The notes under the pieces are model-generated. The model made no database searches, was not told where the DNA came from, and saw only the letters and a program-made list of their open reading frames with translations. A stretch of 64,000 bases of DNA, taken from contig CAJFTO010000002.1 of assembly GCA_904419955.1 (NCBI GenBank), positions 62,001 to 126,000 on the forward strand, written 5' to 3'. Positions 9,886 to 51,654 of the stretch are shown here, piece by piece; the stretch's first letter is position 1, and each line of letters begins with the position of its first letter. A program made the position numbers and the translations under genes. Source of the DNA: Candidatus Roslinia caecavium (lineage in GTDB: Bacteria > Bacillota > Clostridia > Monoglobales > Monoglobaceae).

Positions 9886-10698
9886 TTATACCGCCGGCGC
9901 GATCAGTATATTCAGGCAGACTATCGCCGCAAGCAAGATGGCCATATATATCCAACCGTATACGTCCGTCCTGCTCATCTTGAGCCGGTTGAGCCGCGTT
10001 CTGTTCTTCCCGCCTCTGTAGCACCTGCACTCCATAGCGGTGGCAAGTTCGTCCGCGCGTCTGAACGAACTGATAAACAGCGGTATCAGTATCGGTATCA
10101 TAGCCTTCGCGCGCCTTATTATATTTCCGCTCTCAAAGTCCGCGCCCCTCGCCGACTGCGCCTTTATTATCTTGTCCGTCTCCTCGAGCAGGGTCGGGAT
10201 AAAGCGGAGCGCTATCGTCATCATCATCGCCAGTTCGTGCGCCGGAAGACCTATCTTCTTAAACGGGGAGAGCAGGTTCTCCAGACCGTCGGTCAGCGCT
10301 ATCGGAGACGTGGTGAGCGTAAGCAGCGACGTTCCGAATATCAAAAACGCGAGTCTGAGCGCCATAAACGACGCGAAAACGACGCCTTCGCGGGTTATGG
10401 TGAAGATCCACCAGTGGAATATCGGCGTTCCCGAGGTCAAAAACAGATTAAAGACCGCGGTGAACAGAATAAATATCATTATCGGCTTAAGTCCTTTTAT
10501 AACGAACTTAAACGGTATCTCGGAGCTTTTTACGCAGACCGCCAAAAAGACCGCGAGAACAATGTAACCGTAAAAATTCGACACGGTAAAAACAGCGGCT
10601 ATATATACGATTATAGCCAGTATCTTAGTTCTTGGGTCTAAGCGGTGTATAAACGACGCACCCGGGAAAAACTGTCCCAGCGTTATATCCTTAAGCAT
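9886..10698 (-). CDS. ecfT: Energy-coupling factor transporter transmembrane protein EcfT
   Basis: This is the membrane coupling subunit of ECF vitamin transporters; it links ATPases EcfA1/A2 to substrate-binding S components. It has several hydrophobic helices, the RLDPRTKI motif near the start, and two coupling helices carrying Ala-Arg-Gly (KAQSARGADFESGN) and a second motif, CRCYRGGKNRTRL, in which the usual Ala-Arg-Gly is Cys-Arg-Cys. I chose Met at 10698 because GGAG lies six bases upstream; the reading frame continues another 11 codons upstream into a duplicated 179-bp segment. No S component lies next to it, so the module is probably shared (group II ECF). Confidence 0.93.
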   Translation of the reverse strand: MLKDITLGQFFPGASFIHRLDPRTKILAIIVYIAAVFTVSNFYGYIVLAVFLAVCVKSSEIPFKFVIKGLKPIMIFILFTAVFNLFLTSGTPIFHWWIFTITREGVVFASFMALRLAFLIFGTSLLTLTTSPIALTDGLENLLSPFKKIGLPAHELAMMMTIALRFIPTLLEETDKIIKAQSARGADFESGNIIRRAKAMIPILIPLFISSFRRADELATAMECRCYRGGKNRTRLNRLKMSRTDVYGWIYMAILLAAIVCLNILIAPAV

Positions 10699-10700
10699 AA

Positions 10701-10879
10701 TAATCTCCATTCCGCCGCCCTGCGTCGGCATAAATAGTGATAAAAGCTCTCTTATCCGCAGGGCAAGGAATGATAAGAGATTATTATACGCCCATGCGCG
10801 TTTCCGAGCGCCATGCGAGGAAAATTTCGCGCGGGCGCTTAAATCCTGCCGGAGGCTAACGTGAAAGGTACTTTCACGT
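10701..10879. repeat. 179-bp tandem repeat, copy proximal to ecfT
   Basis: This copy is about 97 percent identical to the next (six differences in 179 positions). Each unit, read on the minus strand, starts with a strong palindrome (arms TAACGTGAAAG and CTTTCACGTTA around three bases), contains CTCTTATC/GATAAGAG and GCCCTGC/GCAGGGC inverted pairs, and ends with GGAATGGAGATT, which supplies the ecfT Shine-Dalgarno site. The frame reading MPTQGGGMEI runs in frame into ecfT here. The repeat separates ecfA2 from ecfT. Confidence 0.95.
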
Positions 10880-11058
10880 TAATCTCCATTCCGCCGCCCT
10901 GCGTCGGCATAGATAGTGATGAAAGCTCTCTTATCCGCAGGGCAAGGGATGATAAGAGATTATTATACGCCCATGCGCGTTTCCGAGCGCTATGCGAGGA
11001 AAATTTCGCGCGGGCAATTAAATCCTGCCGGAGGCTAACGTGAAAGGTACTTTCACGT
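10880..11058. repeat. 179-bp tandem repeat, copy proximal to ecfA2
   Basis: This is the second copy of the unit, starting nine bases after the ecfA2 stop codon on the minus strand. A GGAG six bases before a GTG (11054-11056) could start a 12-codon frame encoding KVPFTLASGRI, ending at 11018. In the other copy the same frame is preceded in frame by MPTQGGGMEI (ATG at 10910, stop at 10839). Translation of either is unproven. Confidence 0.95.
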
Positions 11059-11066
11059 TATTCTCC

Positions 11067-11936
11067 TTAATCTCTGACTTGAGTTCTGTCTCCCGCAAAA
11101 AACGGTCTCAGCGCTTCAAACGCGTCGTCGGGAGTGTATATCCCGTCGGGAACATTTAAGCCCGCGTCTTTGAGCATATCCATGACGTTTGTTATCTGCG
11201 GTACGGCGAGACCTATCTCTCTGAGCCGTCCGCTCTGCCTGAATATCTCGGACGGCGGCGCGAACATCTCAACCTTTCCGTGATTCATCACGAGTATCCT
11301 GTCCGCGAGCTGGGCCACGTCTTCCATACTGTGGGAGACGAGTATTACCGTCAGGTTCATCCTCTTATGCATATCTCTGAGTTTATATAAGATCTCGTTT
11401 CGTCCGGCCGGGTCGAGTCCTGCCGTCGGCTCGTCCAAAATAAGTATCTTTGGCTCCATCGCCAGGACTCCGGCTATCGCGGCGCGTCGTTTCTGACCGC
11501 CCGAGAGATCGAACGGCGATTTTTCGAGCGTATCCTCTTTAAGCCCCACCATATTTGCGGCGAACCTCGCGCGCTCTAAGACTTCTTTCTCACCGAGCCC
11601 CATGTTTTTGGGTCCGAACGATATATCCTTGATAACGGTCTCCTCGAAGAGCTGATACTCCGGATACTGCATAACAAGCCCTACCTTAAAGCGCACGTCC
11701 CGAAGTTTTGTCTTTTTATCGGTCAGATCTTCTCCGTCTATATAGACCTTGCCGCCGGAGGGCTTAAGCAACCCGTTTAAAAGCTGGATAAGAGTAGACT
11801 TGCCCGAGCCGGTATGTCCGATAAGCCCGATAAACTCGCCCTCGCTTATCTCAAGGCTGACGCCGTCCAGCGCTTTTTTTTCAAACGGCCCTCCGACCAT
11901 ATATACGTAGCTGACATTTTCGAGTTTAATCATCAT
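11067..11936 (-). CDS. ecfA2: Energy-coupling factor ATPase EcfA2
   Basis: This is one of the paired ATPases that power ECF vitamin and metal uptake. Walker A GHTGSGKST is near residues 37-45, the Q-loop is MQYPEYQLF, the signature LSGGQKRRAAIAG is near 144, Walker B is ILILDEPTAGLDP, and the switch His is in VSHSMEDV. The C-terminal extension (about 230-289) matches the EcfA dimerisation region. Two adjacent ATGs follow GGAG; either could be used. It begins 25 bases after ecfA1 ends. The 289-residue length is normal. Confidence 0.95.
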   Translation of the reverse strand: MMIKLENVSYVYMVGGPFEKKALDGVSLEISEGEFIGLIGHTGSGKSTLIQLLNGLLKPSGGKVYIDGEDLTDKKTKLRDVRFKVGLVMQYPEYQLFEETVIKDISFGPKNMGLGEKEVLERARFAANMVGLKEDTLEKSPFDLSGGQKRRAAIAGVLAMEPKILILDEPTAGLDPAGRNEILYKLRDMHKRMNLTVILVSHSMEDVAQLADRILVMNHGKVEMFAPPSEIFRQSGRLREIGLAVPQITNVMDMLKDAGLNVPDGIYTPDDAFEALRPFFAGDRTQVRD

Positions 11937-11960
11937 ATATCTCCATTTAAGTATTTGCCG

Positions 11961-12956
11961 CTAATACTTCAAGAACGCAGTCTTATTCGTATCATAGCCC
12001 AATTTCATCAGTATCTCCGCAGCGCATTCAGCCTCGTTCAAAACCGCCGGGTCGAGATCGGCTCCTATCCGGTTAAGCCGATATACCAGCTCGGTCGACT
12101 GAGGCGCGTCAAGCCCAAGCTCCCTGAGCTTCTCCACGTTTGGGAATATCTCTTTCGGCTTTCCTTCCATCGCTATCCTGCCGTCGTCCATCACGATCAC
12201 CCTGTCCGCTTGAACCGCCTCGTCCATATAATGCGTAATAAGTACTACGGTCATTCCCTGTTCTCGATTCAACCTCTTGATCGTTGTTATTATCTCTCTT
12301 CTACCCGCCGGGTCGAGCATCGCCGTCGGCTCGTCCAGAACTATTATATCCGGATCCATCGCCAACACTCCCGCGATCGCCACTCTCTGCTTCTGTCCGC
12401 CCGAGAGCATGTGCGGAGCGTGCTTCTTAAACTCCGACATATTTACAGCGGCCAGCGCGGCGTCCACCCTCCTGCGAATCTCCTCGGACGGTACTCCAAG
12501 GTTCTCGGGCGCAAACGCTACGTCCTCCTCGACGATCGTCGCGACCATCTGATTATCCGGATTCTGAAATACCATCCCGACCGTCTGTCTTATCTCGTAC
12601 AGCTTTTCTTCGTCAGAAGTGTCTAACCCGTTCACTATCACTTTTCCGGAAGTAGGCGTCAATATCGCGTTAAAATGCTTGGCAAGAGTCGATTTTCCTG
12701 AACCGTTATGTCCTAAAACGGTCAAAAACTCGCCTTGGCGCACTCCCATGCTAACGCCTCTTATGACCTCTGTTCTGCTCTCGCTTTCCTCGTCGTAGTA
12801 CTCGAACCGCAGATCCTCTACAGTTATTATGTTCACCGGACTTATCGAATCCTCAATACTCGCAGAGGGCGCGCTCACGCTTTTGCCGCTCGTCTTATCT
12901 ATATTTAATTTTATATCCGTCTCAGCTTTCCCGCTCTTTTTCATAAGCTTCTCCAT
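11961..12956 (-). CDS. ecfA1: Energy-coupling factor ATPase EcfA1, with N-terminal extension
   Basis: This is the partner ATPase of EcfA2. The core begins at [13 protein letters not shown] (about residue 44); Walker [11 protein letters not shown]-loop [19 protein letters not shown], signature [13 protein letters not shown], Walker [14 protein letters not shown] and the switch region LITHYMDEA are all intact. The first 43 residues are a polar, Lys/Ser-rich tail not found in most EcfA1 proteins, and it may be absent if initiation is internal; I kept the first ATG because GGAAG lies upstream, directly after the methyltransferase stop. The two genes are 12 bases apart and probably cotranscribed. 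Confidence 0.93.
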
Positions 12957-16730: not shown

Positions 16731-17087
16731 GGGGATGCAATGGTTTCGACGGGGGTTTAGAGGCATGAGGAGCGGGCCGAAACGGCAGCCGCGTTAAGGC
16801 GCCAAACTAAAATTAAACGCTAATAACAATAATTACGAATTAGCTGCCGCTTAATTACAGCGGCATGTCCTTCAGCGGCCTATCGCGAGCCGCTAACGGA
16901 TATCAACACACTAAGCGATGAACGTGAGGCGGGAAAGCTTTGACCCGTCCATGCATCTATGAAGCTACCGAATACGCCGGTATGTCTGTGGAACGGCGTA
17001 TAAGGGAATCTTAGCCATAGACTACGCCCGTAGCGCCTTGTGAGGATAAATTTTCGGACAGGGGTTCGATTCCCCTCATCTCCACCA
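16731..17087 (+). ncRNA. ssrA: tmRNA (SsrA), one-piece
   Basis: The 5' end GGGGATG pairs with CATCTCC at 17077-17083, followed by discriminator A and an encoded CCA, making the tRNA-like acceptor; TTTCGAC near the 5' end and GGTTCGATTCC in the T arm are characteristic. The tag frame starts at GCT 16819 and ends at TAA 16852, encoding ANNNNYELAAA, so the tag ends in Ala-Ala as expected for protease recognition, here with three alanines. A hairpin GCTACTT/AAGTAGC (16631-16648) lies upstream. A short minus-strand frame over the 3' end (MRGIEPLSE) is an artefact. Confidence 0.97.
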
Positions 17088-18337: not shown

Positions 18338-18535
18338 CAAAAAACTCCAACTCTGCTAAAACAGCGCTTGTACCAAACAATCGATATAAAACTAACCCCC
18401 GCCTGCGCGTCGCAAACGAGGGTATTTTTCCCTAAAACAGCTCAACTTTGACATATCCGGCTAAATCGACCCGGGCTCGGGCGTCGAGTTTGCAAATCCG
18501 GATCCCATCGATTCTTCTTAAAACGTATCGTTTAC

Positions 18536-19939
18536 CTAAACGTTTACGAGCGGTCGGGGATCCGCTTCAGCCTCTTCGACGACGTATCCGTCGCGTCCTT
18601 GTTTTTTCGCTATGTATAAAAGCCGGTCGGCTTCCCGATAAAGCTCGTCTATCGTCCTATCCGCCGCAGCCGCAACTGCTCCCATACTGCACGACAGTCT
18701 GCTTTCATTAACTTCGATCTTATGGATCCTGTTTAGGAACGCCGTCAAATTGGTTTCTAATCTATCCCTCGATATAGGCATGTAGATCAAAACCGCAAAC
18801 TCGTCGCCGCCTACCCTGCCGATCACACCGTCGCGTCTAAAGATCTCCTTGAGCGCCGCGGCCGTACTTTTTAAGACGCGGTCGCCTTCCGGATGACCGT
18901 AATTATCGTTTATCTCTTTAAAATAATCCATATCTATCATTATAAAATATCCGTTTTTCCCGCCTGAATGAAGCCCTCCGATCATTTTCTCACAAGACTG
19001 AAAAAACGCGTTTCTGTTCATGACTCCGGTCAAAGCGTCAGTCCTCGCTTCATGGTTCATATACGTAGTATATTTACGATTAAATATAAGGAATATGATA
19101 ACCAAGGTCATGAGCGAGAGAATACCTATCAGGAATTGCACCTGAAGGTGCACTAAGTCGGAATAATTAGCCTCCGTCAGGGTAATGCCGCTCTGGTTCA
19201 GCACATAATCCATTCTATGGACAAAATATATGACCACCGCCATAGAAAAACAAAGCGTAAGTATAATGATCACCGCTAAAGAAAGCCGGTGATAGCGTTC
19301 GCCGATCTGGAGCCGACGCGCTTTATCGACTCTATAGCAAAATTCACGCCATACCCGCGTCTTTCCGATTTTCCAAAACGCCAAAACGATCGCCGCCGTT
19401 ATCAGATCGGCGGCAATATCGCCGAGACTGCCAAGACTGCGAAGCGCGCTTGCCGCGCTGTAGCCCGTCTCCGGAAACAATACTCCCATAAACGAATACA
19501 CCAGCAGCGAATGAATAAATTTTCCAAAAAATGTGACGATAAAAATACCGATCCCGGTAAAACGAGTCTTTTTAACGCCAATATACAATAGTCCGACGAT
19601 CAGTCCAAACAGCGCCCGGCTTCCAACGCTGAGCAAAATACTCGCCGCAGGACTTCCGCTCAAAAAAGGCGAAAACAGTTGATCCGCCGCCATAACGTAA
19701 TTCGCGCCCGCCTTCCACATGCTGCAAAGACCGAATATGGCGCCCAATATAGTCGCCTCCGGCAAACCGCCCAAAGCTCCCGCCAGTAATACCGGGATAT
19801 AAGCGACCGTGATGGAGATCGGCTCTATGTGCACGTATCCCAAAAAAGAGAACGACATCAAAAGCTCCACCGCTATCAGCGTTATTAATAGATACAAGCG
19901 CATACTATTATTCTTGTAAAACTTCGTTAACGTTTGCAT
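18536..19939 (-). CDS. Diguanylate cyclase with ECF S-component-like membrane domain
   Basis: The C-terminal third is a GGDEF domain: DALTGVMNRNAFF, IDMDYFKEINDNYGHPEGD and the active-site RVGGDEFAVLIY, so c-di-GMP synthesis is likely. The expected inhibitory RxxD site reads with Gly instead of Asp, so product inhibition may be absent. The N-terminal 190 residues (about five or six helices) resemble substrate-binding S components of ECF transporters: HIEPISITVAYIPVLLAG, then GAIFGLCSMWKA and SRALFGLIVGLLY. Two more helices flank an extracytoplasmic loop before the GGDEF domain. ATG 19939 has GGGGAG seven bases upstream; the first ATG of the frame (19960) does not. Ligand sensing by the S-like domain is inferred. 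Confidence 0.85.
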   Translation of the reverse strand: MQTLTKFYKNNSMRLYLLITLIAVELLMSFSFLGYVHIEPISITVAYIPVLLAGALGGLPEATILGAIFGLCSMWKAGANYVMAADQLFSPFLSGSPAASILLSVGSRALFGLIVGLLYIGVKKTRFTGIGIFIVTFFGKFIHSLLVYSFMGVLFPETGYSAASALRSLGSLGDIAADLITAAIVLAFWKIGKTRVWREFCYRVDKARRLQIGERYHRLSLAVIIILTLCFSMAVVIYFVHRMDYVLNQSGITLTEANYSDLVHLQVQFLIGILSLMTLVIIFLIFNRKYTTYMNHEARTDALTGVMNRNAFFQSCEKMIGGLHSGGKNGYFIMIDMDYFKEINDNYGHPEGDRVLKSTAAALKEIFRRDGVIGRVGGDEFAVLIYMPISRDRLETNLTAFLNRIHKIEVNESRLSCSMGAVAAAADRTIDELYREADRLLYIAKKQGRDGYVVEEAEADPRPLVNV

Positions 19940-19960
19940 ACCGGATCTCCCCTTTCTCAT

Positions 19961-20776
19961 CCGCGGTAATCCGCTTAATTTTTGAGCCGCCGCTATGAGA
20001 CGGTCGCTCTGTTTAACAAAATCGTTTTAAGTCTATGAAATTTCTCTATAACGAAAATATGTGAAATATATACTTATTTGCATAGATCCGTCTATATCAA
20101 GAATATTTTTGCTAATATTTTCTCTAACATAAATCGATTCCTCAAATTTACATCCATTCGACAAATATAACCACAAAAAGCTTTATTCATTGTTGCTTGA
20201 CTGCGTTTATTATACCACGTCTACTATAGATTTGCAACCGCATTTCAGCCGCGGCCCGGCAAAATTTATCCTAACCGCGATCGCAAAACTTTGCTATATC
20301 TATTTAAACAAATACGTTCGCAACACAGAATATATGTTAAATGGCCGAATATGCCAACCATAGCGCTTAAATCCAAATAATAAAATTTGACCTATTATTT
20401 TGACTTATTATATAGAAGCAACAAATCCCTTATGATCAAAGTATATAACTATCAAATTATCAAAAATCCGCCTGATTTGTCACATCTCAATATATTCTAA
20501 GATTCTTATGATAAAATTATATAAGTATATGATCCCGTCGTCAAAGTTTGGGATAGCATACGGCGTTGTAAACAAACCGCTCTAATAAAATTCGCTTAGC
20601 GTAAAATTTATCTGCAGAAACAGTCGGCATAAAATATTCTGAATCCGGAATAAAACTTAAACTAAACCGCCGCGCAGACGCAGAACCGGCGTTTACAGAC
20701 TGATGAATCTGATAGATATACCAAGACGGCGTAAGGGTTTTATAAAATAGTATAAATATAAAAAGGAGGAGCCAAA
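19961..20776. other. Long AT-rich intergenic region between divergent genes
   Basis: This 816-base gap contains the cyclase promoter but no other recognisable gene. I see no strong hairpins or repeats beyond AT-rich runs. The 265-base leader of the cyclase gene could hold a regulatory RNA, but no known c-di-GMP riboswitch core was identified by eye. Confidence 0.4.
20209..20237 (-). promoter_or_regulatory. Promoter of the diguanylate cyclase gene
   Basis: TTGCAA (20232-20237) and TATAAT (20209-20214) are separated by 17 bases on the minus strand, with a leader of about 265 bases before the gene. Confidence 0.65.
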
Positions 20777-21572: not shown

Positions 21573-24500
21573 ATGAAAAAAGGAAAACGACTACTAAGCG
21601 CCTTGCTGACGCTGTGTATGATAGCGACTATCGTTCCGACGTATATGTTTGCGTCGGCTGAGGAAACGGTAACGCCGCTTGAAGCGTCGCGCCTTACGGA
21701 GGACGAGCTTCCGGGCTGGAATATAGTCTATTTCGGCACGGCGGCGGCGACTCTGTCCGAGGACGACGCGGTATATTCCGTTCCGATCTACAGAGAGGGC
21801 GATCTGAGCGGCGAGGCGTCGGTCGAGGTGCGCGCCGTCGATCTCACAGCTCTCTACGGAGAGGACTACGAGCTCGTTACTGAAGACGCCGAGGTTATAG
21901 GCGGCGACGAAACGATACTCGAGCGCTACTCCCGCGAATCGGCGGAGCTTGAAGAAGCCGAGGCCGAGCAGGCGGAAGAAACAGACGGCTCAGAACCGGC
22001 CGGAGACGAGGAGTACGTCGTAGAAGGCGAAGACGACGAGCCGGAGACGGAGACCGACGCGGCTCAGACCGAGGACGGCGAAGCGACTTTGCCGGATCCG
22101 GCTCAGACCGACGAAACGGCAGTCGAAGAAGCTGTAGCCGAGGAAGCTGTAAATGAAGAAGTTGCAGCAGACGAAGCGGTTGCTGAAGAGACAGTAACTG
22201 ATGAAGAGGCAGTTGAAGAGGCAGTAACAGAAGAGACGGCGACCGAAGAGACTACCGATCTTGCGGCCGACTTAGACGGCGACGGCTACGTGAGCCTTGC
22301 GGAGCAGAGAGAATACGAGACCGGCGAGCCGTCGAGGGAGCTTACCGAGACGGAATCTCAAGATCTTATAGACGATATCGTCGCCGAGACCGTTCCGAAC
22401 GCTATGAACGCTATAGACGCGTCGGCTAAGCTCAGGGTGTACTTCGCGCCGGGCGAGAGCGAGAAGACGATAGAGTTTAGGATAATGGACGACAACGACG
22501 CCGAGAGCGACGAGGCGTTCAACCTGCTGCTGACCGATCCGGATGGCGCGGCGGTATATATGGTGACCTCTTTCTCTGCCGTGATAACGGACAACGAGGA
22601 GACGGAGCGCTCAGAGGTAACGTTCTCCAAGAGCAAGTACAAGTCCAAGGACGGCAAGGTCGTAGTCACCGTAGAGCGAAAGGGCGCGGAGTATTCCGTG
22701 GCCGATATGACCATGCTCAGCGTTCAGGACACGGCCAAGCCCGGCGAGAACTACGAAGAGATAAACGAGACGGTAGCTTTCGCTCCGTATGAGACCGAGA
22801 AGGAGATAGAGATCCCGGTCGCGGGCGAGGGCGAGTTCGAGGTTACCCTCTCAGACCTTAAGGCCTGCACGGAGGGAAAATATACTAAGGCGACGATCGT
22901 TATAGACGAGGGCGAAAACGCAAACGAAGAGGGAAGCGAAGAGGCGACTCTTGCCGCCGCGAACGGAACGCCCGGCGCGTTCGGAATCACGATAGACGGC
23001 AAAAGCTACACGGTCGAATATAACTGGGGCGAACCCACGGGCGCTATCATGGACGACAGCTACACCCCGGCGCTCCAGGTCGGCGAGTACTACTTCCCGT
23101 CCGACCAAGCCCACGGCGGCGTTTTCAGTTACGGTCACTGGGATGGAAATAAACCGGGCGGAACAAGAACCAGCCATTACCAGATAGACAACGACTCCGA
23201 TATGTCCAGAAACTACGGTAAGCTGTATTATTACTACTGGGTTACCGGCAAGAAGGGCAGCGTCTGGACGGAGACATACGCCGCGCAGCCCGCGATCTTC
23301 TACCGCTTTATAGCTCCCGACTGGACGATGACCAGCGGTACGTTCGGCGGACAGCGCGCGAGGTTCAGGATCGTATCCGAGCGCGGAGACGAAAAATACG
23401 ATCTGTCTCAGGACGTTACCGGACAGTTCGGCAGAACTCTGGACAGAAGCATACTCCAGATAGGCGAGGGCAAGACGAGAAATTCGGACAGTACCTTCGA
23501 TATGTACGCGTATTCAATAGATCAGGAGAAGAATAAGACGCCGAAGTCTTATTTGAATTTCTACGGCGCGGCGGCGATGTTCAAGCGCTACGACGTCAGC
23601 ATGGAGACTCCGAACGGGCTTACATACCTCGCTCCGACCGGTACGACCGAGTCGATCGAGCCGGCGCAGGTCACGGTTAAGAGCGGGGCGCAGCTTTTGT
23701 ACCAGCACGAGACCCGCGCGATCTACGCGAATTCGGACGAGGAGAGCTCCAATCTGGTATTCTCGCTCGGCAACTCCCATGTAAACGGCCACGACGGTAA
23801 ATTCGGTTATATCAGCGGATATACGATAAGGATAGGCAGCGGCGGAGAGAACGCCGTAACCGTGAATTATCCCGCCGATTTCATAAGCTACTTAAACAGC
23901 CGCAAGAACAAAACCACCGGCTACATAGACTATAGCGCATCGGCCGTCAATAAAGAGATAAATAAAGTGAACCAGAATCTCGACACCATACCTATGGACA
24001 AATATTTTATAGACTGGGTAGAACAGACTCAGGTCGCGACCAGCGACGACATGGACAGTCCGGGCTATAAGCAGATTCTCAGTTTCAGACCGGTGTTCAG
24101 CTATAACGACGTAGACGTTACCGTATTGGCTCCGCGGGGCGAGGACGGCGCGTTCAACAACCCGCAGCTTGCCGAAGGACAGACCGCGACCTTCCACGCG
24201 GGCGATACGCTGGATCTCTCCGCGACCGCGGCCGATCCGGTGGGAACTACCGTCGTGGGCTACGAGGTCTCGACCGACGGAGGCGTGACCTTCGATACGA
24301 TCACCAGCTACACCACGCTTTTCCTCGAATCCTTCAAGAGCTACATGATCCGTCCGGTCATAGCCCAAAACGACAACAGGATAGAGATAGAGTTTGCAAA
24401 CGATACGGCGAGGAGAAATCTTGAAGTCCTGGACGTCATCCCGCAGAGCGAGCTGGCTAACGACCCCGCGCTCAGCGGACGCACGATCCTTAACCTGAAT

Positions 24501-27500
24501 CCGAACGCTTCTTCGGCGCAGGATAAGATGGAACCCGATCCGGGCAAGGATTACGCGATAAGGATAAGGGTGACCGGCGACGCCGGGAACGGTTACGTAT
24601 ACCGGCCGGTGATAACGGATACCATGACGGGCAAGACCTACAAGACTCAGACATATTATATGAACGCAAGAAGCCGAATGGGGGACAATGTGCTCAGGAT
24701 ATCGGTCGAGAGGGTCAGAGAGTCCGACCTCAGAACATACACGATCACCGGCGACGTAGCGAGCGCGGTAGCGCCTATCCGCAGCAACGGTCTTGAGCTC
24801 AAAGAGCTCCCCGTAGCGAATAGGACGGTCATGATAGGCGCGGGTCAAGACTTAGGCGGCAACGTTATCGCGGCGTCGGCTATGACCGAAAACGACGGCG
24901 GATATACGCTGATGGAAATCACCGCGAAGAGGGGCGATAGGATACCGATACTTATCTCAGACGGACTGACAAACGGTCAGGTAGCCGAGATAACGATACC
25001 CTCTTCCGCCTACAACAACGATGATACCGGGTATACTGTAAACGTCGGCAGGACCAAGATCTCCTATCCCACAGGGATCCCCAAGGTGACGGATATAACG
25101 TACAGCTACGACAGAACAGCGAATAATCAGAGTAACGACAATACTCAGAACTCGATAAACATCTACGACGATACGATAAATATCACCGCTTACGTAGATC
25201 CTGCGGGCAGAGTCGTATCGCGGGCGATATTCACGGTCTACACCGTGACCGGAAATAAGACCGAATACGTCGCGTACCCGTCCGAAAGCGACGCCGGCAG
25301 ATTCACTGTATCCATTCCGAGGATGACGGAAAATCTGCACAACGGAGACAGGGTCTCCGTAAGGCTGGTGGATAACGAGAAGTATTCCTTCAGCGTAGGA
25401 AATGGGACGTCCACGGTAGATATCGAGTATCCGGACGTAGATACCGGACTGGTGTTCTATACCGAAAACGTCCTTAACGTGCCGCAGTACTACGAGGCGA
25501 GCGAAGCGCCCACAGTAAACGTGCCGGTAGTCGGAGCCGCGGGCGGAAGCGCGTCGACCGGACTGCTGAGCTTCTCGCGCACCTACTGGGACAATCAGAA
25601 GAGCGGATACACCTTAGACGTCAATATTACCGCAAATTACGCGAACTCAGCCGTATCGACCAACGATAAGCTGAACGCGCTCAATAAGTATAAAACGGCG
25701 GTTAAAAACGATACCTCCGCTCATAACAAATCCGAAGCGAAGAAGGCCGAGAATATAATGATCGAGCAGACCATAAATTCTATCGAATCCGACCCATATT
25801 ACAACCCTGTCGACCCCGATACGAGTTATGGAATAGACAGCCTCGAATATCAAATGAAACAAAACCAAAAGATGATCAACGATCTCGACTCTACGCAGCA
25901 AGCTAAAGACGTGCGCGCGGGAATGACCAATAGCAGAACCTTGAGCGCAAACGTAGGCGTTATGCTCCAGATCGAGTTCATCTACTCTCCGGTGAGCCAG
26001 GAGTACATATTCTGCTACGGCGGTATTACCATAGGCGGCACCGTCTCGTTCAATAAGAACTTCTACACGGCGATTTCGTTCGTGCCCTGCTTCTTTAACC
26101 TGAACGGAACGGCGCAGGTCAACATCGTGTACGGAAAGGCGACCACGGAAGCGGAGAGAGCGTTCACGGCGGGCGAGTTTGAAAGTCTCGCGGGCAACGT
26201 CTCAGAGGTGTTTGCAGGCGATACGAACGACGCGGGATTAGACGTTATGTTCAAACTCACCGGTCAGGTGGGAGTCGGTATATGCGGCGTCCTTTCGGCG
26301 AGAGGATATATGTCGCTTAAGCTGCAGTTCGATCTGGGCTACGATCAGAGCGACGTTAACACAGGTTTCCTGATGGGTTCCGAGGGCGGAATCGGTTTCG
26401 ATATCCTGGTCGGAACCATCAACATAAACCTCTTCACCGCCCAGATAGGCTTCGGCTCGCTCAAGAATCAGACTTCGTACAGCTTCTTCGGCGGACTGAT
26501 CGACGAGGACGGCGTTGGCATAGCTTCGCTCGCGGCTGAGAATACGGACGAAGGAGTCAAACTGCTCTCGACCGACGAAAACGGCGCGGTCGTTACCTAT
26601 CGCGACGCGGATGCGGGAACTGCGGATATGTCGACCTTCGGGCAGAGCGAAGCGCAGCTTGCGGCCGGCTCGCTCGAACCCATTTCGATGACGACTCTGC
26701 TGCCTAATGCGGCCGAGCGCACCAGACCTCAGATCACATTGCTTGACGGAGGCAGGAAGTTCATAACATTCGTCGGAAACGACGGTACGGGCGCTCAGGT
26801 ACTGTACTATTCGATATTCGACGGAAGCTCGTGGAGCTCTCCGGCGCAGGTATCAAACGACGGCACGCCCGACTATATGCCGGAGATCCTGGATATGGGA
26901 GATAGGATCGCAATAGTGTGGGCGGACGCCGAGAGAGCGTTTACCGATACGGACACGGCGATGGATAAGCTCAATCTTATGAATATCTCCGGAGCGGTCT
27001 ACGACATAAACGCGGGCGTCATGTCCGAAGAGACGGTAGTGGCCGAGGACGAATACTGTAACCTCGCCCCAAGACTGTCCGAATCTAACGGTAATATCTA
27101 TTGCAGCTACATGGCGCGCGATCTGAGCGGCGTCGAGAGCGAGCAGCAGCTACTCGATATGTCCGGCGTCTACTCGGCTATGAAATATTCGGTCTACAGA
27201 CCGGGCGATACCGCCCCGATCGACGGCGGCTTCACTGAAGTTAAGCGCCCGACCATGACCGATCCTCTGTTGATAGACTATCATATGGAGACGATAGACG
27301 TGGGCGGAGAAAACTATATTGTATCCGCGTATACGATAGACGAGGACGAGGATCTGAATACAGGCGAGGACAGAAGCATGTGGCTGAGCCTTACCAACAT
27401 AGATACCGGCAAGGCGTACTACCCGATAAGGCTCGAGGCCGAGGGAAGCGCGGCGAGCGCTCCGCAGCTGAATAAGCTGGATGGTAGACTATACCTGACC

Positions 27501-29933
27501 TATATAACCGGAGGCTCTGAATTCCACTTGATGGATCTGAGCGCATTTATGACCGACCTGTTCGTACAGGGAACGCCCGAGTTGGACGAGGATAGTATTC
27601 AAACGGAAGTAGCCAACGTAGACGCGTTTAGGAACGCGGACGAGAACGACCAAAGCTGGTATAAGAAAACCGCGGACGAACTCGGTATGAGCGAGGACGG
27701 CTATGCGGACACCATATACGACAATCTTACAAGAGACGAGTTTGCGATGTCTGAGACCGGACTCAGACAGAGAGACGGTTCGAATTCCGCGACCTCGAGT
27801 TATTCGCTGACGAGCGACGGCGAGGATCTGTACCTGTTTTTCACCGACGTATCGAGCGTCGATAACGGCTCCTACTCGACCGGCAAGGAACTGTACGGTA
27901 TGCGTTATCACAGACTAAACGAGGACTCGGATCTGCCAGACGAGATCACCGACACGGAAGACGGCGGTTTCTCCGACGCGGCGCAGATCACCAACTACAA
28001 TAAGGTAATCGACGAGATGGATATAGTTATGGACGAGAACCACAACGTCAGCCTGGTATCCAACTACTACGAGCAGAGCATTGACGAAAACGGACAGATC
28101 CAGTTCAGCGACAACGCGCTGGTAGAGCTCGAGTTCGTACCCGCAAGCTCGGTAGAGGTGGTGAGCGGCACGATAGAGGTTGACTCCGTGGTAGCCGGCG
28201 TGGAATCTCAGCTCATGTTCGACGTTGAGAACGACGGCATGCTCGTTCAGGAAGGCTACGAATATATGGTCACCAGAAGGAGCGGCGCTGACGGCGCAGA
28301 GACTACGGTAGCTCAGGGCTCGAGCGACACCGTTCTGAAGCCGGGCGATACCGAGAGCGTGGCCGCGGTATTCACGCCAACCGGAGAGAACGCGGATACG
28401 ATAGTTTCGTTCTACGTCCGCAAAGACAATACCGAGGAATGGGGCGAACCGTCGGTAGAACTCAGTATCCCCTACGAGAGCGACCTTGAGTTTACGGATA
28501 CGGAGATAACGACGGACGGCTCTACGGCGAGCCTGGCGTTTGAGATCCAGAACAACGGAAGAAAGCCGTCCGAAGCGGTAGAAGGCGTCCTGTACTCGGT
28601 AGACGACGAGAACAACGCTATGACGACCTACGCGACGTTCGAGATCCCGGCGCTCGCATCCGGCGAGACATACGGATCCACCTTAGAATTTACGCCGAAG
28701 GTATCCGACTTCTCAGAACTCGGCAGGGTAGAACTTAAGATAGACGCGGTGAGCGGCGAGGAGACCGTAGCCGACGGAATGGTGACCCTGTCGTCGATCG
28801 CGCCGATGGTGGCCGAGATCAACGGCGGAGCCGAGAATGTAGTTCTGGACAGCGGCGCTACGCTGCAGCTTGAGACCGCGATAGCTCCTTGGAGCGGAGT
28901 CGCCGGCGAGGTCGAGTACTACAGCGACGACAACAACATAGCGTCTGTCGATGAAAACGGGTTGATCACAGGAAACAGCGCGGGCAACACGACGATCTAC
29001 GCTTACTATCCGCAGAACGGAATCACCGACGATATCGCGGTCAGCGTGACCGAGAGCGGTTCGTCCGGTCAGGGCGGCAGCGGCGGCGGAGGACTTGGAG
29101 CGAACGGTTTTGCGGCCGCGAGCTACACCGTGACCTTCGTCTCAAACGGCGGCTCCGCGGTACAGAGCGCGACCGTAAGCAGCGGAGAGACGGTTTCCGA
29201 ACCGACCGCGCCTCAGAGAGAGGGATACGTATTCGCAGGCTGGTACGCGGACGAGAATCTTGTTACGCCTTACGACTTCTCGACGCCCGTTACTCGTAAC
29301 ATAACGCTGTATGCGAGATGGGAGACGGCGACCGAAGGAGAGGAACAGCAGCCGACTACTACGACGACGTTTACCGACGTACCCGCCGACGCATGGTATG
29401 CGAGCGCAGTTGAATACGTCGCCGAAAACGGTATCATGAACGGCGTGGGAGACAACCTCTTCGATCCGGAGGGAAGCCTGACAAGAGCGATGTTTGTAAC
29501 GATGCTCTACCGCATGGAGGGCGAACCGGCGATAGTCGCGCAACAGACTTTCAGCGACGTGGCGAGCGACGCTTATTACGCTCAGGCGGTGGCTTGGGCG
29601 CATGAGAACGGCGTCGTAAACGGCGTATCCGAGACCGAATTCGATCCGGACGCTCCGATAGCCCGCGAGCAGATGGCGGCGATGATGTACCGTACGGCTC
29701 AGTATCACGGTCAGGGCTTCGAAGGCCTGTACTCTATGCAACTTGAGTATCCGGATGCGGCGGAGATCTCGGAATACGCGGTCGAAGCGGTAATGTGGTG
29801 CACGATGAATGGAGTCTTTAACGGAACCGACGGAGGCAGATTCGCGCCTGCGGACGACTCCACCAGAGCGGAAGCCGCGGCCGTATTCCAGAGATTCTCA
29901 ACGCTGGATTTTATGACGCAGAACGCGGAGTAA
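21573..29933 (+). CDS. Giant secreted SLH surface protein with Calx-beta, CARDB-like, Big2 and InlB repeats
   Basis: A 2,786-residue surface protein. Signal peptide is residues 1-28 (ends MFASAEE). Residues 35-115 and about 285-350 look like the two halves of one Calx-beta domain; between them lies an acidic Glu/Ala/Thr/Val insert with a calcium-loop motif DLDGDGYVSLAEQRE. A second Calx-beta follows (about 350-450). A large beta-rich middle (500-1600) has few clear matches, then a sialidase-like repeat region (about 1,700-2,150, YYSIFDGSSWSSPAQVS), two CARDB-like domains (2,190-2,420), a Big2 domain (2,425-2,500), an InlB/Flg_new repeat (about 2,518-2,585), and three SLH domains (2,599-2,786) for wall anchoring. 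GGAGG precedes the start. Function: adhesion or S-layer scaffold is inferred. Confidence 0.88.
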   Translation: MKKGKRLLSALLTLCMIATIVPTYMFASAEETVTPLEASRLTEDELPGWNIVYFGTAAATLSEDDAVYSVPIYREGDLSGEASVEVRAVDLTALYGEDYELVTEDAEVIGGDETILERYSRESAELEEAEAEQAEETDGSEPAGDEEYVVEGEDDEPETETDAAQTEDGEATLPDPAQTDETAVEEAVAEEAVNEEVAADEAVAEETVTDEEAVEEAVTEETATEETTDLAADLDGDGYVSLAEQREYETGEPSRELTETESQDLIDDIVAETVPNAMNAIDASAKLRVYFAPGESEKTIEFRIMDDNDAESDEAFNLLLTDPDGAAVYMVTSFSAVITDNEETERSEVTFSKSKYKSKDGKVVVTVERKGAEYSVADMTMLSVQDTAKPGENYEEINETVAFAPYETEKEIEIPVAGEGEFEVTLSDLKACTEGKYTKATIVIDEGENANEEGSEEATLAAANGTPGAFGITIDGKSYTVEYNWGEPTGAIMDDSYTPALQVGEYYFPSDQAHGGVFSYGHWDGNKPGGTRTSHYQIDNDSDMSRNYGKLYYYYWVTGKKGSVWTETYAAQPAIFYRFIAPDWTMTSGTFGGQRARFRIVSERGDEKYDLSQDVTGQFGRTLDRSILQIGEGKTRNSDSTFDMYAYSIDQEKNKTPKSYLNFYGAAAMFKRYDVSMETPNGLTYLAPTGTTESIEPAQVTVKSGAQLLYQHETRAIYANSDEESSNLVFSLGNSHVNGHDGKFGYISGYTIRIGSGGENAVTVNYPADFISYLNSRKNKTTGYIDYSASAVNKEINKVNQNLDTIPMDKYFIDWVEQTQVATSDDMDSPGYKQILSFRPVFSYNDVDVTVLAPRGEDGAFNNPQLAEGQTATFHAGDTLDLSATAADPVGTTVVGYEVSTDGGVTFDTITSYTTLFLESFKSYMIRPVIAQNDNRIEIEFANDTARRNLEVLDVIPQSELANDPALSGRTILNLNPNASSAQDKMEPDPGKDYAIRIRVTGDAGNGYVYRPVITDTMTGKTYKTQTYYMNARSRMGDNVLRISVERVRESDLRTYTITGDVASAVAPIRSNGLELKELPVANRTVMIGAGQDLGGNVIAASAMTENDGGYTLMEITAKRGDRIPILISDGLTNGQVAEITIPSSAYNNDDTGYTVNVGRTKISYPTGIPKVTDITYSYDRTANNQSNDNTQNSINIYDDTINITAYVDPAGRVVSRAIFTVYTVTGNKTEYVAYPSESDAGRFTVSIPRMTENLHNGDRVSVRLVDNEKYSFSVGNGTSTVDIEYPDVDTGLVFYTENVLNVPQYYEASEAPTVNVPVVGAAGGSASTGLLSFSRTYWDNQKSGYTLDVNITANYANSAVSTNDKLNALNKYKTAVKNDTSAHNKSEAKKAENIMIEQTINSIESDPYYNPVDPDTSYGIDSLEYQMKQNQKMINDLDSTQQAKDVRAGMTNSRTLSANVGVMLQIEFIYSPVSQEYIFCYGGITIGGTVSFNKNFYTAISFVPCFFNLNGTAQVNIVYGKATTEAERAFTAGEFESLAGNVSEVFAGDTNDAGLDVMFKLTGQVGVGICGVLSARGYMSLKLQFDLGYDQSDVNTGFLMGSEGGIGFDILVGTININLFTAQIGFGSLKNQTSYSFFGGLIDEDGVGIASLAAENTDEGVKLLSTDENGAVVTYRDADAGTADMSTFGQSEAQLAAGSLEPISMTTLLPNAAERTRPQITLLDGGRKFITFVGNDGTGAQVLYYSIFDGSSWSSPAQVSNDGTPDYMPEILDMGDRIAIVWADAERAFTDTDTAMDKLNLMNISGAVYDINAGVMSEETVVAEDEYCNLAPRLSESNGNIYCSYMARDLSGVESEQQLLDMSGVYSAMKYSVYRPGDTAPIDGGFTEVKRPTMTDPLLIDYHMETIDVGGENYIVSAYTIDEDEDLNTGEDRSMWLSLTNIDTGKAYYPIRLEAEGSAASAPQLNKLDGRLYLTYITGGSEFHLMDLSAFMTDLFVQGTPELDEDSIQTEVANVDAFRNADENDQSWYKKTADELGMSEDGYADTIYDNLTRDEFAMSETGLRQRDGSNSATSSYSLTSDGEDLYLFFTDVSSVDNGSYSTGKELYGMRYHRLNEDSDLPDEITDTEDGGFSDAAQITNYNKVIDEMDIVMDENHNVSLVSNYYEQSIDENGQIQFSDNALVELEFVPASSVEVVSGTIEVDSVVAGVESQLMFDVENDGMLVQEGYEYMVTRRSGADGAETTVAQGSSDTVLKPGDTESVAAVFTPTGENADTIVSFYVRKDNTEEWGEPSVELSIPYESDLEFTDTEITTDGSTASLAFEIQNNGRKPSEAVEGVLYSVDDENNAMTTYATFEIPALASGETYGSTLEFTPKVSDFSELGRVELKIDAVSGEETVADGMVTLSSIAPMVAEINGGAENVVLDSGATLQLETAIAPWSGVAGEVEYYSDDNNIASVDENGLITGNSAGNTTIYAYYPQNGITDDIAVSVTESGSSGQGGSGGGGLGANGFAAASYTVTFVSNGGSAVQSATVSSGETVSEPTAPQREGYVFAGWYADENLVTPYDFSTPVTRNITLYARWETATEGEEQQPTTTTTFTDVPADAWYASAVEYVAENGIMNGVGDNLFDPEGSLTRAMFVTMLYRMEGEPAIVAQQTFSDVASDAYYAQAVAWAHENGVVNGVSETEFDPDAPIAREQMAAMMYRTAQYHGQGFEGLYSMQLEYPDAAEISEYAVEAVMWCTMNGVFNGTDGGRFAPADDSTRAEAAAVFQRFSTLDFMTQNAE

Positions 29934-51570: not shown

Positions 51571-51654
51571 CGGTATTTTGGCGGGGGCGCCCCTTCCCGC
51601 ATTTCTTTTGACCAATATGGTGCGTAGCGCCGCGTTTTCTACTTCAAAATACCG
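51571..51654. other. Structured segment closed by a 10-bp stem
   Basis: CGGTATTTTG (51571-51580) is the exact complement of CAAAATACCG (51645-51654). Between them are a GCGGG/CCCGC stem and a GGTGC/GCGCC hairpin, giving a three-way-junction-like fold. It could be part of the 3' end of the polyamine operon or a small RNA. Confidence 0.4.

Follow-up and report, generated by a model that had tools for sequence, protein, structure and literature searches.

A membrane diguanylate cyclase with a sensor domain related to the PanT branch of ECF S-components in a Clostridia genome

The window analysed here, the whole stretch of 64,000 nucleotides, carries a gene that we read, with a probability of roughly 65%, as encoding a membrane diguanylate cyclase that uses a former ECF transporter S-component of the PanT branch as its sensor and in which a pantothenate-like ligand would gate c-di-GMP synthesis without the ECF module. 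The homology, the predicted fold and topology, the ligand arginine, the loosened docking motif, the catalytic motif and the position of the clade beside coaX-linked transporters were computed here. We file the protein as an S-component-derived receptor and not as a transporter; the cell, whose Clostridia genome is of gut type, has probably made a receptor out of an uptake protein. If this is true, vitamin gating of a cyclase would be an additional class of input for c-di-GMP, and the word "vitamin" is absent from a review of c-di-GMP sensory inputs (PMC8846402).

Sequence and predicted fold of the membrane domain

The first-pass annotation proposed an S-component-like membrane half from motifs at aa 37-54, 66-73 and 107-119, and this was borne out by sequence similarity far beyond chance. 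With the single sequence, phmmer against the PDB found 4rfs_S, the PanT S-component from the pantothenate ECF transporter of L. brevis (3.6e-4), while a family profile of 52 relatives reached 1.3e-10 for the same chain and 4.3e-5 for 6zg3_C, also PanT, with no match in the PDB beyond these two structures. Profile-profile comparison (hhalign) of the sensor with 20 standalone S-components gave 99.9%. Pfam ECF_trnsprt (PF12822) matches 51 of the 52 family members (best 2.1e-12), and seven of ten members scanned singly exceed its curated cut-off; Pfam and NCBIfam found nothing for the N-terminus of the single window protein, and family-level scans were needed. The best NCBIfam match is weak and falls on the folate S-component family (30/52, best 7.5e-7); a FolT-family identity was rejected, these matches being weaker than those to PanT.

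Comparison of the AlphaFold2 model of the membrane domain (Table 1) with known folds, the check that had been suggested, agrees. Foldseek ranks 1-15 in the PDB are all S-component chains, headed by 4rfs_S (probability 1.00, TM 0.64/0.69, a modest E-value of 2.4e-3), and no match of the N-terminus to a MASE or other sensor appeared. MASE-type sensors are alike in being integral membrane sensors that precede GGDEF, but this identity was rejected, as no MASE family matches and both fold and sequence are those of an S-component. By sequence and predicted fold, then, residues 1-205 are an S-component.

Table 1. Features of the sensor-cyclase gene and of the ECF module in the window (window positions; residues are those of the 467-aa protein)
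Feature	Position	Strand	Remark
Whole gene, 467 aa	18536..19939	-	S-component domain, TM7-TM8 hairpin and GGDEF
S-component domain, aa 1-205	19325..19939	-	six predicted helices (H1 ~11-30 to H6 172-193); pLDDT 90.5, pTM 0.87
TM7 (218-249) and TM8 (256-299) hairpin	19043..19288	-	predicted structure
GGDEF domain, aa 299-450	18590..19045	-	Pfam 1.3e-35
GGDEF motif, aa 377-381	18797..18811	-	
Would-be inhibitory I-site RxxD	18827..18838	-	RRDG here, lacking Asp (R368-R-D-G371)
Arg108	19616..19618	-	equivalent of pantothenate-binding Arg95 of L. brevis PanT; 52/52 sensors
His143	19511..19513	-	equivalent of PanT Asn131
Glu25 in H1	19865..19867	-	48/52 fused sensors vs 6/54 standalone S-components
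Outer H3-L3-H4 segment, aa 75-100	19640..19717	-	W75-K-A...D86-x-x-FSP...S94-G-x-P...S100; near-invariant in sensors
H1 AxxxA position	19871..19885	-	EcfT-contact motif of transporters; here I19-x-x-x-A23
AAGGGGAG	19947..19954	-	ribosome-binding sequence for ATG 19939; basis: sequence
Terminator-like hairpin, 13 pairs	18395..18423	-	directly after gene
Promoter-like TTGCAA-17-TATAAT, TG before -10	20209..20237	-	consensus match; count not above shuffles
EcfT (CbiQ family) of shared ECF module	9889..10731	-	not considered part of sensor
Two ABC ATPases (EcfA pair)	11070..12956	-	not considered part of sensor

Hairpin and cyclase domain

Two helices followed by a full GGDEF domain had been described from the sequence, and both are found. 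In the full-length model (pLDDT 91) TM8 is one uninterrupted helix that runs into the GGDEF domain, and the hairpin carries an invariant Q268 (55/55) and R242 in 53/55. The GGDEF domain is catalytically complete as judged from its residues: D336, N344, D345, GGDEF and K445, which serve metal and GTP, are present in the window protein, and D336, G377, G378, D379 and E380 are invariant in 46 aligned relatives. The reported loss of the I-site Asp is correct, and in the family neither the Arg nor the Asp of this site is conserved. A weak Cas10 palm match is accounted for by the palm-fold relatedness of GGDEF.

Ligand pocket and docking residues

Mutational work assigned W64, R95 and N131 as ligand residues of L. 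brevis PanT (quoted in PMC7755397), and their conservation, which had been put forward as a check, is partial. The arginine is kept throughout the sensors, W64 aligns with F69, a position that is Phe in 49/54 standalone relatives as well, and the position of Asn131 holds His in 51/52 sensors, compared with Asn in 46/54 and His in 8/54 standalone proteins, four of the latter coaX-linked and four other. Three coaX-linked S-components (L012/L167, L041/L168 and L137) carry both His143 and Glu25, as the sensors do, and are probable pantothenate transporters in which His replaces the PanT Asn; as such, His143 fits pantothenate use. Together with the loss of a glutamate in H6, the change from Asn131 to His may nevertheless mean an altered ligand. 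Near-invariant in the sensors are Glu25, W75-K76-A77, D86 and F89-S90-P91. Pocket-side positions (W75, S90, P91, S94 and R108 in 52/52; D86 and H143 in 51/52) are conserved above other positions, which argues for a specific ligand.

The docking surface has loosened. Small residues occupy both positions of AxxxA, the H1 motif that contacts EcfT in transporters (PMC11109136), in 29/52 sensors vs 52/54 standalone proteins (Fisher 5e-7), the first position being Ile here and Trp, Phe, Asn or Glu in other members. The H6 glutamate is present in 52/52 of the standalone proteins where aligned, and most sensors have Thr, Ser, Ala or Val in its place; the column lies outside the profile comparison and is less certainly aligned.

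Distribution of the sensor family

A scan of 84,980 species genomes returned 79 loci, some of which are standalone S-components, and 55 full-length proteins were aligned (L032 and L111 being the same protein). The shared 8-TM module is followed by GGDEF in 49 of these rows and by HisKA-HATPase-REC in six; because both outputs occur, the sensor module of ~290 residues, TM7-TM8 included, is a portable unit. In an even draw from the class, 4 of 391 genomes carry the sensor, the own genome included, and carriers are mostly MAGs named Oscillospiraceae, Lachnospiraceae and kin. The hybrid histidine kinases headed by the module (L101-L105 and L107, which equals L030) come from rumen-type Clostridia and measure 845-847 aa or, where PAS is present, 1075 aa. 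Outlying carriers are Desulfovibrionaceae (L099, L108) and Succinatimonas (L100), whose sensor-cyclase genes were probably acquired from Clostridia; the L108 gene contains internal stops, and that of L100 is truncated at the end of its contig. In three further relatives (L050, L093 and L097) the cyclase part is shortened or interrupted.

Origin and linkage to coaX

A maximum-likelihood tree (quick search, SH-aLRT support, no bootstrap) groups every fused sensor in a single clade (SH-aLRT 99) that lies amid standalone S-components. Two standalone S-components whose genes adjoin those of P1-family peptidases are sister to this clade (SH-aLRT 91). Next to these comes a clade in which most S-components are coaX-linked; it joins at 86 and has a support of its own of 99. 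The PanT crystal structures and the other S-components of the own genome lie outside the sensor clade, the tree being rooted through a weak outgroup branch. The receptors apparently represent a second, sequence-traceable origin from S-components. In the sister pair, the genes for the standalone S-component, a P1-family peptidase and a HAD-type hydrolase stand in a row in two genomes (L170:6342-8764 and L171:575-2978), a cluster that possibly serves to import and cleave an amide of the beta-alanyl or pantetheine-like kind.

Genes for pantothenate uptake would be expected to be linked to coaX, which encodes the type III pantothenate kinase. The coaX gene, identified by eye from sequence and by BLAST among the loci and not by a curated model, adjoins 15/32 standalone S-components retrieved by the sensor, compared with 0/30 of the top Pfam S-components (Fisher 8e-6) and 2/20 drawn down the Pfam list (Fisher 0.007). 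None of the fused genes lies beside coaX. PanT comes first by sequence, by predicted fold and by coaX context, which points to kinship with the pantothenate branch. Of the "vitamin or metal" input proposed earlier, the vitamin part thus has this kinship on its side, and nothing points to metals.

Proposed mechanism and alternative readings

In the mechanism that we propose, the six-helix domain would bind a small ligand from outside the cell in its outward-facing pocket, with contacts from Arg108 and His143 and perhaps also from Glu25 and the L3 segment on the outer side. The likeliest ligands are pantothenate and acids or amides related to it. In the model the N-terminus and the GGDEF domain lie inside and the pocket outside, as in free S-components. 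A ligand-induced change would be relayed through H6 and the TM7-TM8 hairpin into the continuous TM8 helix, which would set how two GGDEF domains are arranged in the dimer and thereby how fast c-di-GMP is made; the analogy with 5TMR receptors makes this sequence of ligand, H6/TM7-TM8 shift and GGDEF dimer change probable. The sensor-cyclase would act alone, with no ECF module and no product inhibition at the I-site. Ligand binding and identity, dimer gating and physiological output are what we infer here. A bolder version, with the odds somewhat against it, is that pantothenate (vitamin B5) itself directly gates c-di-GMP synthesis, and a histidine-kinase relay in the sister proteins, through a PanT-derived domain taken off the ECF module independently of 5TMR-LYT. 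The own genome gives little direction on the ligand. PanC is found there, as in 4/18 carriers (own included), and no PanT-like standalone S-component was detected, so that a need for external pantothenate is not evident; the mixed presence of PanC makes auxotrophy no argument. Reading the ligand from the genome's own S-components was rejected, since none resembles the sensor.

The domain might instead sense another molecule (a vitamin, small acid or lipid) or be ligand-free and mainly anchor or dimerise the enzyme. The altered pocket (Asn to His, lost H6 Glu) and the weak folate-family match in NCBIfam speak for this, as does BtsS, a 5TMR receptor with the same fold that binds pyruvate (PMC10653868; PMC11109136). 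We hold it to be unlikely, since the pocket-side conservation argues for a specific ligand and Foldseek, the profile search and the coaX context each name PanT first. More improbable still is a transceptor, in which the S-domain still docks on EcfA1A2T and imports its ligand while docking or turnover regulates GGDEF. The module is indeed encoded in the genome and in the window, as had been noted (EcfT and two ABC ATPases at 9889-12956), and in 29/52 sensors, though not in the window protein, both AxxxA positions remain small. Against docking stand the bulky or polar residues at the first of these positions and the missing H6 Glu. Toppling would also be hindered by the attachment of H6 to the TM7-TM8 hairpin and the cytoplasmic domain behind it. 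Furthermore, no EcfT was found in three carrier genomes, whose assemblies are possibly incomplete, and in the two Desulfovibrionaceae carriers, also incomplete assemblies, EcfT is weak or CbiM-linked, the one CbiM-linked case being dedicated. The earlier suggestion of a link between the sensor and the EcfA1A2T of the window therefore does not stand: the module is a common, shared one, the docking motif is loosened and there are carriers without EcfT. Proximity was rejected as evidence, the nearness being probably incidental.

That the domain is a plain 5TMR-LYT receptor, as in B. subtilis DgcK/YhcK, which is already known to share the S-component fold, is scarcely credible. Fusions of 5TMR with GGDEF are known (PMC11109136) and PF07694 gives weak matches (15/52, best 4.7e-4), but PF12822 fits far better, the NxR motif of the H1-H2 segment occurs in 0/52, and there is no H0 before H1, which starts at about residue 11 or earlier and leaves no room for it. 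The TM7-TM8 hairpin is moreover additional and lies outside the 5TMR domain. Absence of H0 and NxR and the weaker PF07694 match led us to reject this identity, and the former S-component of the PanT branch remains our preferred reading.

Relation to known systems

The sensor resembles PanT (4rfs_S, 6zg3_C; the group II ECF pantothenate S-component) in sequence, six-helix fold, ligand Arg and pocket positions, and differs from it in its fusion to TM7-TM8 and an enzyme, the His at Asn131, the loosened AxxxA and the lost H6 Glu. With 5TMR-LYT receptors (BtsS, YpdA, LytS; DgcK/YhcK) it has in common the S-component fold as a receptor and GGDEF or kinase outputs, and these receptors are likewise marked by loss of AxxxA (PMC11109136); the sensor is nearer to S-components in sequence, bears the extra hairpin and is apparently of separate origin. 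HmrC of Caulobacter is an S-component-like membrane protein in a pathway that affects c-di-GMP, but it is a separate protein not fused to a cyclase, and its likeness is by fold prediction only (PMC11481889).

Since 5TMR-LYT offers examples of the S-component fold with GGDEF or kinase outputs, the kind of protein is already known. A PF12822 or PanT-type domain fused to GGDEF was not found reported in the open-licence literature on ECF transporters with GGDEF or cyclases, and the PF12822-GGDEF combination will already appear in databases through automatic domain annotation. Partipilo and Slotboom showed that the fold is common to S-components and 5TMR receptors, with sequence similarity gone and the order of origin undecidable (PMC11109136). 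In the present case sequence still assigns the receptor to a named branch of the S-components, and in the tree it sits among coaX-linked transporters, which makes the step from transporter to receptor, the changed residues and the likely ligand directly testable.

Gene context and c-di-GMP output

The open reading frame is complete and starts at the ATG at 19939, which is preferred over a second in-frame ATG upstream at 19960 because AAGGGGAG is a ribosome site for the former. Across ~60 loci the fused gene has no conserved neighbour, and none that names a ligand; with the terminator-like hairpin after the stop, this indicates that the gene is probably a single-gene (monocistronic) unit.

Several GGDEF regions occur in the own genome, six at E 8e-9 or better, and no match to a PilZ protein was obtained there. 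The only c-di-GMP-I riboswitch found in the genome (63 bits; L209:1501-1587, contig C22) precedes a sugar transferase gene and a glycosyltransferase split over two frames (L230:2415-7499, contig C22), which suggests surface polysaccharide as an output, where motility or adhesion had been proposed earlier. Elsewhere in the window, a secreted 2786-aa protein with S-layer-homology-like repeats at its end is encoded at 21573-29933, a tmRNA gene lies at 16731-17087, and a skipping-rope RNA (RF02924) is found at 51573-51652 on the minus strand.
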